This document shows, piece after piece, positions 60,537 to 63,961 of a stretch of DNA of 64,000 bases. The number at the start of each line of letters is the position of its first letter. Positions within the stretch are counted from its first letter, which is position 1. Source of the stretch: Bacteroidota bacterium (GTDB lineage Bacteria; Bacteroidota; Bacteroidia; Bacteroidales; Prolixibacteraceae); NCBI GenBank assembly GCA_030684645.1, contig JAUXUF010000093.1, forward strand, positions 1 through 64,000, in the 5' to 3' direction. The notes beneath the pieces were generated by a model. It was not told the origin of the DNA and did no database searches. It saw nothing but the letters and a program-made list of their open reading frames with translations. A program made the position numbers and the translations under genes.

Positions 60537-61469
60537 ATGGAAATATTTCAGGCAAACAACATTGTAAAGGAATTTGTTGGTCATGTAGCATTAAGCTCGG
60601 TCAGCATTTCGGTAAAAGAAGCATCCATATTTGGCCTGCTGGGGCCAAACGGTGCGGGGAAAACAACTTTAATCCGGATCATCAACCAGATTACTGCTCC
60701 TGATAGCGGCGAACTGTTTTTTGAAGGCAGGCCAATCAAGCCGGATGATATTTATCAGATTGGCTATCTGCCCGAAGAACGCGGACTGTATAAGAAAATG
60801 AAAGTGGGCGAACAAGCCCTCTACCTGGCGCAACTGAAAGGGATGTCGAAAAAAGATGCTTTGAAAAGCTTGAAATACTGGTTCGAGAAGTTCGAAATTC
60901 AGGCATGGTGGGGCAAAAAGGTCGAAGAACTTTCGAAAGGAATGGCGCAAAAAGTTCAGTTCATCACCACCGTTATTCACCAACCCAAATTGTTGATTTT
61001 TGATGAACCTTTCACTGGATTTGATCCAATCAATACCAACCTGATCAAAAATGAAATTCTCGAATTGAAGAAGAATGGAACAACCATTATCTTTTCGACG
61101 CATAACATGTCGTCAGTTGAGGAAATTTGCGACCACATCGCATTGATTAACCAATCGAAAAAAATTCTGGACGGACAGATTGATCAGGTCAAAGAAAAGT
61201 TTAAAACAAATACCTTCGAAATCATTTACAGGGGTGAAACGCCTGATTTACAACGTCAGCTGGGTTCTCATTTCGATCTGCTTGAACATGACGAAAGCGC
61301 TCAACTGAAGCAAATGAAAGTGAAGTTTTTAAGTGACCAATCCAACAATGAGTTGTTAAAAATACTCATGAATCAGTTCGAGATAGTATCATTCAAAGAA
61401 ATCATTCCAAGCATGAACGATGTTTTTATCCATGTAGTTGAAGAGAATAACCGCGAAATCCAGCTGTAG
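60537..61469 (+). CDS. ABC transporter ATP-binding protein
   Basis: FGLLGPNGAGKTTLIRIINQ, ELSKGMAQKVQFI, LLIFDEPFTGFDP. Confidence 0.94.
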   Translation: MEIFQANNIVKEFVGHVALSSVSISVKEASIFGLLGPNGAGKTTLIRIINQITAPDSGELFFEGRPIKPDDIYQIGYLPEERGLYKKMKVGEQALYLAQLKGMSKKDALKSLKYWFEKFEIQAWWGKKVEELSKGMAQKVQFITTVIHQPKLLIFDEPFTGFDPINTNLIKNEILELKKNGTTIIFSTHNMSSVEEICDHIALINQSKKILDGQIDQVKEKFKTNTFEIIYRGETPDLQRQLGSHFDLLEHDESAQLKQMKVKFLSDQSNNELLKILMNQFEIVSFKEIIPSMNDVFIHVVEENNREIQL

Positions 61470-61471
61470 CC

Positions 61472-62818
61472 ATGAACAAATCAATCTTAATCCTGAAACG
61501 TGAATACCTGACCCGGGTAAAGAAAAAGTCGTTCATTATCATGACTTTGCTGGTGCCTTTATTTATGGCTGCATTAACCATTCTGCCAACCTACCTGGCC
61601 ATGATGGACGACAAGGAAGAACGCATCATCGCCGTTTATGATCCTACCGGACTGATTCTGAATCAGCTCGAAAGCAACGAATTTACCAGGTTTCATTACA
61701 TTCCTGTACAGGAATTTCAGAAATTGAGTAAAGATTTCAAATCAGGAAATTGTTATGCGGTTCTTCATATTCCTGAAAATATCCTGACTACCAGTCGTGC
61801 AGAAATGATTTCGGATAAGCAAGTCACTTTTGATGTTAAAAACCTGGTTACGAACCGGATTGAAAAAATAATTGAAGGAGAAAAAAGGAAACAGGTCATT
61901 GATGAAATTGGTGTGCCTGATCTGGAAAAGAAACTGGCAGCCACCAAAACCAATATCACGGTTGAAACCATCAAGCTGGGCGAAGAAGGCAAGGCTGTAA
62001 AAAGTTCAACCGAAATTGCCATGGCCATTGGCTATGCAGCGGGATTCCTGATTTACATGTTTGTTTTCATCTACGGCACCATGGTGATGAGAGGTGTGAT
62101 GGAAGAAAAATCAAACCGGATTGTTGAAGTGATTATTTCGTCGGTTAAACCATTCCAGCTTCTCTTCGGAAAAATAGTTGGAATCGGCTTGGTCGGACTG
62201 ACTCAAATTGCAATCTGGCTCATACTTGGAACTGCAATTAAGACCGGTGTAACAGCTTTCCTTGGAAATGGATCGGCTGAAACAGCGGTTCATGCTCAAA
62301 ATATCATGGCTGGACAGCAAATGGGGCAGGCAGTAGCAAGTACTCCGGCAGGTCAAAACCAGGTAGCTGAAATCCTGCAGATGATTGGAAACCTGAATCT
62401 CCCGCTGATCCTTTTTGGGTTGTTTTTCTATTTTATCTGCGGGTTCATTCTTTACGCCTCACTCATGGGAGCAATCGGATCGGCTGTTGACAGCGATGAA
62501 GATGCCCAGCAAATGATGCTCCCGGTCATGATGCCATTGATATTCTCAATTATTATTCTTTTTGCTGTGGCCAAGAATCCGGAAGGGCCACTGGCTTTCT
62601 GGGCCTCAATCATTCCGCTTACATCACCGGTAATCATGATGGTGCGGATTCCTTTTGGAGTTCCAGCGTGGGAAATTATTCTTTCCATGGTAACCTTGCT
62701 GGCTACAATTATGGGAACCATCTGGATGGCAGGAAAAATATACCGGACAGGAATCCTGATGTATGGGAAAAAAGTAACTCTTAAGGAAATTGTTAAATGG
62801 TTATTTTATAAAACTTAA
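61472..62818 (+). CDS. ABC transporter permease (ABC-2/NatB-like)
   Basis: NKSILILKREYLTRVKKKSFIIMTLLVPLFMAAL; FIYGTMVMRGVMEEKSNRIVEVIISSVKPFQLLFGKIVG. Confidence 0.92.
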   Translation: MNKSILILKREYLTRVKKKSFIIMTLLVPLFMAALTILPTYLAMMDDKEERIIAVYDPTGLILNQLESNEFTRFHYIPVQEFQKLSKDFKSGNCYAVLHIPENILTTSRAEMISDKQVTFDVKNLVTNRIEKIIEGEKRKQVIDEIGVPDLEKKLAATKTNITVETIKLGEEGKAVKSSTEIAMAIGYAAGFLIYMFVFIYGTMVMRGVMEEKSNRIVEVIISSVKPFQLLFGKIVGIGLVGLTQIAIWLILGTAIKTGVTAFLGNGSAETAVHAQNIMAGQQMGQAVASTPAGQNQVAEILQMIGNLNLPLILFGLFFYFICGFILYASLMGAIGSAVDSDEDAQQMMLPVMMPLIFSIIILFAVAKNPEGPLAFWASIIPLTSPVIMMVRIPFGVPAWEIILSMVTLLATIMGTIWMAGKIYRTGILMYGKKVTLKEIVKWLFYKT

Positions 62819-62857: not shown

Positions 62858-62865
62858 TATACTTG
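62858..62865 (+). promoter_or_regulatory. -7 box TATACTTG upstream of the cys leader peptide
   Basis: One mismatch to TAnnTTTG; would place the TSS about 15 nt before leader ATG 62887. Confidence 0.5.
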
Positions 62866-62886
62866 CACCAACAAAAAACGAAAAAA

Positions 62887-62967
62887 ATGATTGCAAACTT
62901 CTCATACATGTATATGTGCTGCTGTTATAAACAGTGCGGGGAAGGTATGTTTTCGATAGAAATTTGA
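62887..62967 (+). CDS. Cysteine-rich leader peptide (26 aa) of the cysK attenuator
   Basis: ATG ATT GCA AAC TTC TCA TAC ATG TAT ATG TGC TGC TGT TAT AAA CAG TGC GGG GAA GGT ATG TTT TCG ATA GAA ATT TGA = [26 protein letters not shown]. Cys codons at 62917-62925 and 62935-62937. Confidence 0.8.
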
Positions 62968-63001
62968 AACGAATAAAAGAGATAAAATATCGAAGCCTTC
63001 C
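62940..63001 (+). promoter_or_regulatory. Predicted antiterminator, mutually exclusive with the terminator
   Basis: GGAAGGU (62940-62946) + UUCGAUA (62952-62958) pair with UAUCGAA (62988-62994) + GCCUUCC (62995-63001): 14 pairs (one G-U), 5-nt bulge on the 5' side. It uses the terminator's left arm. Confidence 0.7.
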
Positions 63002-63022
63002 GAACCCCGGAAGGCTTTTTTT
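62993..63022 (+). terminator. Attenuator/intrinsic terminator upstream of cysK
   Basis: AAGCCTTCCG (62993-63002) - AACCC - CGGAAGGCTT (63008-63017), perfect 10-bp stem running into a T7 tract (63016-63022). Confidence 0.88.
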
Positions 63023-63049
63023 GTTTATAACCCTAAAAATGACAATAAG

Positions 63050-63961
63050 ATGAAAGTGAACAACATTTTGGAAACCATAGGCAACAGTCCTTTGGTCCGG
63101 ATTAACAATCTGTATCCCGCCGGATACGAAGTCTATGTAAAACTTGAAAAAACCAATCCGGGTGGCAGTATAAAAGACCGTATTGCTCTGGCAATGGTCG
63201 AAGATGCTGAAGCAAAAGGAATACTGAAAGCCGGAAGCGTTTTGATTGAACCCACTTCGGGTAATACCGGAATTGGATTGGCTTTGGTGGCAGCAGTCAA
63301 AAAATACAAACTGATTTTAGTGATGCCTGAATCAATGAGTGTTGAGCGCAGAAGAATACTGACTGCGTATGGTGTAGATTTGGTTTTGACACCACGCGAA
63401 CTGGGAATGAAAGGCGCTAGTGCCAAAGCCAATGAATTGGCTGCCGAAACACCTGATTCCTGGATCCCATCACAATTTGATAATCCATCTAACATTGATG
63501 CTCACAAATTGAATACAGCACAGGAAATACTTAACGATTTTCCTGAAGGATTTGACTACCTGATAACTGGAGTTGGAACTGGCGGGCACATTTCAGGAGT
63601 AACCGAAGTGCTGAAACAAAAATTTCCAAACCTGAAATCGTTTGCTGTTGAGCCTGAACTCTCACCAGTTATCAGTGGCGGCGCTCCCGGCCCGCACCCG
63701 ATCCAGGGAATTGGCGCAGGTTTTATTCCTGTCAACCTGAAAAAAGAACTTCTGGATGGCACGATCCAGGTTTCGAAAGACGAAGCTTTTGACTATACCC
63801 GTAGGGCGGCCAAAGAAGAAGGATTATTTGTTGGTATTTCATCCGGGGCCTCATTCGCAGCTGTGGCCAAGAAGATTGCCGAATTGCCTGTTGGGACAAA
63901 AATACTCACCTTTGCCTACGACACCGGCGAACGGTATTTATCGATTGACGGATTGTTTTAA
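63050..63961 (+). CDS. cysK: Cysteine synthase A (O-acetylserine sulfhydrylase)
   Basis: [32 protein letters not shown] (PLP Lys), [30 protein letters not shown]. Confidence 0.95.

Follow-up and report, generated by a model that had tools for sequence, protein, structure and literature searches.

A predicted cysteine-responsive leader-peptide attenuator upstream of cysK in Prolixibacteraceae

The cysK gene of a Prolixibacteraceae genome is very probably controlled by a cysteine-responsive, trp-type leader-peptide transcription attenuator. The DNA that we analysed, a 64,000-nt stretch referred to here as the window, carries a short ORF with a run of Cys codons ahead of this gene, together with three mutually exclusive RNA helices (1:2, 2:3 and 3:4). 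Comparison with relatives gives the same elements at a fixed spacing. The promoter, the translation of the leader, ribosome stalling and termination are predicted from these features, as is the response to cysteine itself.

The leader locus and its alternative RNA folds

All features described for the window lie on the forward (+) strand. The upstream neighbour of the locus is an ABC-2 transporter gene ending at 62818, the last position of an ABC transporter operon (60537-62818). Downstream of it, a putative Bacteroidota-type -7 promoter box, TATACTTG, was read directly from the letters at 62858..62865, and both this box and its distance to the leader ATG are kept in relatives of the genus. 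Transcription of the cysK leader is expected to start near 62872; a simple sigma-70 promoter scan of the window was uninformative for Bacteroidota. The leader ORF (62887..62967) encodes 26 aa between an ATG at 62887 and a TGA stop at 62965-62967. It contains the predicted sensor codons TGC TGC TGT (Cys-Cys-Cys, 62917..62925) and a fourth Cys codon, TGC (62935..62937), which varies even inside the genus, with Ser, Thr, Ile or Met at this position in relatives. An intrinsic terminator (62992-63022) begins 24 nt past the leader stop, upstream of the putatively regulated gene, cysK (63050..63961), which encodes an O-acetylserine sulfhydrylase of 303 aa (Pfam PALP, PF00291, E 6.8e-69). The letters thus confirm what an earlier note on this DNA had described, a 26-codon ORF with TGC TGC TGT and a fourth Cys between a -7-like box and cysK. 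A tiny ORF, ATG ACA ATA AGA TGA (63041-63054), overlaps the cysK start codon and occurs in some members of the genus only.

The terminator hairpin, GAAGCCTTCCG-AACCC-CGGAAGGCTTT (62992-63018), forms 10 Watson-Crick pairs, as the earlier note had counted, plus an outer G-U pair, with an energy of -17.4 kcal/mol; the accompanying T7 tract was read directly at 63016..63022. The 5' arm of this hairpin, segment 3 (GAAGCCTTCCG, 62992..63002), is also the 3' arm of an antiterminator, and its 3' arm is segment 4 (CGGAAGGCTTT, 63008..63018). In the antiterminator, GGAAGGT (62940-62946) pairs with GCCTTCC (62995-63001), and an extension pairs TTCGATA (62952..62958) with TATCGAA (62988..62994). A competing helix that uses the left arm of the terminator had been proposed before, and this helix, extension included, proved to be the minimum-energy fold of 62934-63005 (-16.1 kcal/mol; equally stable folds in 3 of 200 shuffles). 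A further pairing, absent from the earlier proposal, completes the full trp-type architecture. This is the protector helix 1:2, in which segment 1 (CTTCTC, 62898..62903), part of the early leader codons ahead of the Cys run, pairs with 62939-62944 in the minimum-energy fold. Segment 2 (GGGAAGGT, 62939..62946), the antiterminator 5' arm, can therefore pair alternatively with segment 1 or segment 3. The whole leader RNA is stabler than 200 of 200 dinucleotide shuffles (z -3.4).

We folded the RNA with blocked positions in place of the ribosome. With a mask for the stalled ribosome and a transcript cut off at 63008, the 2:3 antiterminator formed, and the full-length RNA, either unmasked or masked at the stop, folded into the terminator. 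With the stalled-ribosome mask on the full-length RNA, equilibrium folding still preferred the terminator. Since equilibrium folding of the full RNA always prefers the terminator, the switch must be kinetic, depending on co-transcriptional timing as in known attenuators. A ribosome at the leader stop spans about 62950-62979. The earlier suggestion that such a ribosome frees the terminator was correct for the extension at 62952-62958, which is masked, but did not account for the GC-rich core at 62940-62946, which is left uncovered. The protector helix 1:2 matters because it would occupy this core.

In the mechanism that we propose, scarce Cys-tRNA would stall the ribosome on 62917-62925 and block segment 1 from re-pairing. 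Segment 2 would then pair with the emerging segment 3, no terminator would form and cysK would be transcribed. With ample Cys-tRNA, the ribosome would reach the stop at 62965, and segment 2 would be either covered or re-paired with segment 1. With segment 2 occupied, segments 3 and 4 would form the terminator and transcription would end near 63022. A leader that is not translated would be expected to terminate too, via 1:2.

Conservation and covariation within the family

The family is Prolixibacteraceae according to its named relatives (Sunxiuqinia, Mariniphaga and Draconibacterium, plus MAGs), and the family and genus groupings used here follow the tool's own assignment. When 60 relatives were searched at the DNA level, the region turned up in most members of the genus, and a search with cysK matched 129 of 140 family genomes. 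The sample examined comprised 90 cysK upstream regions of the family. An ATG-started Cys-run ORF with an intrinsic terminator 20-38 nt past its stop was present in 74 of these, representing 15 genera, and a 75th case carries a shortened leader, MCCWFLC. About fifteen of the 90 genomes are without the element, which was absent from all 8 sampled members of one genus, g8.

The Cys codons in the runs vary synonymously, with 149 TGT and 75 TGC family-wide, and the leader peptides outside the run have mostly diverged (for example MKNTGNNMMMCCCFLKNGKGVVVF, MKILMPNTAVCCCCDFQKPQMEG and MNTFLMTYTDCCCCCSYSDCRKVGRV). As a control, each amino acid in turn was sought in the 90 upstreams as three residues within four, together with a terminator. 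Cysteine fitted this pattern in 65 upstreams, and the runner-up was Met in 10, where the Met residues adjoin the Cys run. The antiterminator arm begins a median of 12 nt past the last Cys codon, approximately where a ribosome stalled on that codon would have its downstream edge, and stops a median of 10 nt short of the stop codon.

These comparisons bear on the idea that the product of the short ORF is a functional Cys-rich peptide, for metal or redox binding, and that the RNA structure is incidental. The ORF is genuine and conserved in the genus, where the shared peptide pattern includes ..GEG, but little except the Cys run is kept beyond the genus. Moreover, the residues that are shared largely coincide with the RNA arms: codons for Asn-Phe-Ser or Lys-Asn-Thr fall on arm 1, and those for Gly-Glu-Gly or Gly-Lys-Gly fall on arm 2. 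An equivalent leader before ilvD, described below, is rich in Ile/Leu/Val instead. We regard the probability of a functional peptide as practically negligible.

Covariation was assessed on an alignment of 50 diverged leaders with 500 shuffles as control, in tests that leave some relatedness in. For the 2:3 helix, 91% of cells were paired compared to at most 73% for slid partners, and changes from G-C to A-U on both sides were found in 12 cells, at two pairs. The cell counts and the score exceeded those of all 500 shuffles, whereas the number of doubly changed pairs (2) did not. For the 3:4 helix, 98% of cells were paired and 41 cells were changed on both sides, above all 500 shuffles. Since segment 3 is common to both helices, a change in it has its match in each of the two alternative partners. 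The arms were also permuted across genera, which limits the effect of relatedness. Across 15 genera, own 2:3 arms paired better than permuted arms (median p below 1 in 2000, maximum 0.003), and the advantage of own arms was also seen inside genus g11 (24 members). For the protector helix 1:2, own-genome pairing likewise beat genus permutation in 15 genera (median p below 1 in 2000, maximum 0.001). The pairing between CTTCTC and 62939-62944 in the window has as its counterparts AACACC / GGTGTT in g11, ACCTTCTC / GGGGAAGGT in g47 and ACATGCC / GGCGTGT in g9, and the helix is weak in a few genera (g12, g5 and g13). Many members of the window's genus have a weaker 2:3 core (-8.7 vs -12.5 kcal/mol) owing to the GGAGAAGG variant, and the antiterminator extension is less conserved than the core because of one A-C mismatch in many relatives of the genus. 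The earlier note had put its reading to the test of whether the Cys codons and competing stems are conserved in relatives; they are, in the 74 of 90 upstreams, with compensatory changes in both helices.

The surroundings of the hairpin suggest a more trivial origin, in which it does no more than end the ABC transporter operon upstream, as a 3' terminator, and the Cys-rich ORF has arisen by chance. The ABC gene ends at 62818, only 174 nt upstream of the hairpin. In three members of the genus (G008, G010 and G014), which belong to those without the element, the promoter and leader are lost and the terminator is retained directly past the ABC stop codon, ahead of cysK. The same hairpin sequence is also found as an ordinary terminator after the EF-Ts gene in the genus. 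However, a promoter-like box and a conserved Cys-run ORF intervene between the ABC gene and the hairpin in the window, and the ORF and hairpin arms covary. The element is also kept where the upstream gene differs, as at locus L022, and recurs before cysE, an OsmC-like gene and the DUF2061 operon. A terminator serving only the ABC operon is exceedingly unlikely in our view.

Relation to known leader-peptide systems

Leader-peptide transcription attenuators of the trp/his/ilv type occur in Proteobacteria and Actinobacteria. The cysK element resembles them in its end-product codons within a short leader ORF, its helices 1:2, 2:3 and 3:4, and its intrinsic terminator before a biosynthetic gene. 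It differs from them in its cysteine run, in its occurrence in Bacteroidota and in the position of the antiterminator core, which lies inside the leader ORF about 12 nt past the sensor codons. In Bacteroidetes, a Trp leader-peptide attenuator before trp genes, Bacteroid-trp, has reportedly been predicted. The cysK element shares with it the principle of leader-peptide attenuation, already predicted in the phylum, but involves another amino acid and other genes. The Bacteroid-trp RNA motif is listed in Rfam as RF01692 (Weinberg 2010, PMC2864571). At gathering scores, no Rfam entry matched anywhere in the 64,000-nt window, riboswitches, T-box and Bacteroid-trp included.

Poly-Cys leader ORFs have been reported upstream of the cys/cbs operons of Mycobacterium, Propionibacterium and Bifidobacterium (Seliverstov 2005, PMC1262725). 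In these actinobacterial leaders the run lies near the stop and no terminator is conserved (PMC1262725). The mycobacterial leaders are reported to be cysteine-responsive (Canestrari 2020, cited in PMC13236596) and are described as translation attenuation (PMC13236596). The element in the window is like the actinobacterial leaders in having a Cys-codon run in a short ORF before cysteine/sulfur genes. Unlike in the mycobacterial type, with its run at the stop and no terminator, the run in the window is mid-ORF, with a covarying antiterminator and an intrinsic terminator downstream of it.

Transcriptome studies of Flavobacterium psychrophilum and Bacteroides thetaiotaomicron contain main-text passages that take short ORFs, located ahead of amino-acid operons or within long 5' UTRs, to suggest transcription attenuation; these passages mention neither a cysteine leader nor a target among cysK, cysE and the sulfite-assimilation genes (PMC9723704, PMC7366714). 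Our literature search, which did not extend to subscription papers (e.g. Lopatovskaya 2010), found no paper naming a cysteine attenuator in Bacteroidota. The mechanism is classical, and what seems to be new is a cysteine-specific regulon of intrinsic-terminator attenuators in Bacteroidota.

Related leaders in the same genome, the family and the phylum

A covariance model was searched against the window's genome. The cysK leader had the best score (115.6 bits), and the model also matched directly upstream of cysK in further genomes. A second leader, the Cys-rich MNTKSTMCASMCMCLCLAFQKVDRI with a terminator, scored 43.5 bits (G000 contig C298:19833-19976). It precedes a series of DUF2061, siroheme-synthase-like and flavodoxin/FAD CysJ-like (sulfite-reductase-flavoprotein) genes, and this DUF2061-operon arrangement with a Cys leader recurs in many family members. 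In the same genome, ilvD is preceded by Ile/Leu/Val-rich leaders, MKNISIISLVILSVVVVLRAE and MKNISIISLVIVSVVVLLRAE, each with a terminator. They are two near-identical copies (contigs C341:230-369 and C407:225-364), and such leaders are also found in other genera of the family. Among about 40 secondary model matches in the family, the composition of the leader agrees with the pathway: Cys-rich leaders precede OsmC-like genes, the DUF2061 operon and glutamyl-tRNA-reductase- or siroheme-synthase-like genes, and leaders rich in Ile/Leu/Val precede ilvD. The OsmC-like gene, which stands several times beside a second cysK, has an MCMCCCM-type leader and a GCCCTTCAC..GTGAAGGGC terminator at seven named loci and others. 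Of the arguments short of experiment, the strongest for the predicted attenuator is this match between codon content and pathway within a single genome. Together with the family conservation and the covariation, it supports the attenuation that had been proposed from the window's letters. No leader was found at the cysE of the window's genome, and a search of that genome for the pattern TGYTGYTGY gave 697 matches, too many for use.

In other Bacteroidota the element is sporadic. It is found mostly before the cysE of a cysE-cysK operon (at least eleven loci), with unrelated peptides and hairpins, and once, in another family, before cysK. Of forty more distant cysE upstreams examined in the phylum, only one was a clear case, so the element is regarded as sporadic outside the family, and phylum-wide conservation was dropped as a proposal. 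Ignavibacteria-like genomes have poly-Cys ORFs before cysE in which the run is at or near the stop and no intrinsic terminator is present (ten loci), and C/U-rich, G-poor sequence often follows. These terminator-less leaders are possibly Rho-dependent.

The leader in the window could similarly be translated and sense cysteine but act chiefly on cysK translation or on Rho-dependent polarity, as in mycobacteria. The terminator-less poly-Cys leaders of actinobacteria (PMC1262725) are consistent with this, as are the account of mycobacterial leaders as translation attenuation in PMC13236596 and the terminator-less leaders before cysE in distant genomes of the phylum. In contrast, 74 of 74 family leaders have a strong intrinsic terminator, fixed spacing and alternative pairing. 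The terminator in these 74 lies at least 19 nt from cysK, and often far more, and the cysK start is outside the hairpins. Control acting chiefly on translation or through Rho is very unlikely, and we judge all three alternatives, an ABC-operon terminator, a functional peptide and translational control, to be weaker than transcription attenuation.

We are evenly divided on a broader proposal, that cysteine/sulfur genes across Bacteroidota run as a Cys-codon leader regulon of two designs. One would be the intrinsic-terminator design in Bacteroidia, before cysK, OsmC-cysK2, sulfite-assimilation genes and cysE-cysK; the other would be a terminator-less, possibly Rho-dependent design with the run at the ORF end, before cysE in Ignavibacteria-like lineages. 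Amino-acid regulation in Bacteroidota is poorly known, and these comparisons indicate that classical ribosome-stalling attenuation, whose best-known examples are proteobacterial, operates in this phylum as a cysteine regulon of several operons, in which DUF2061 and OsmC-like genes become tied to cysteine supply. The elements are compact and the predictions clear, so that strains in culture allow a direct test.

The terminator at the end of the EF-Ts gene of the genus, seen at two loci, is nearly identical in sequence to that of the cysK attenuator (GCCTTCCG..CGGAAGGC).
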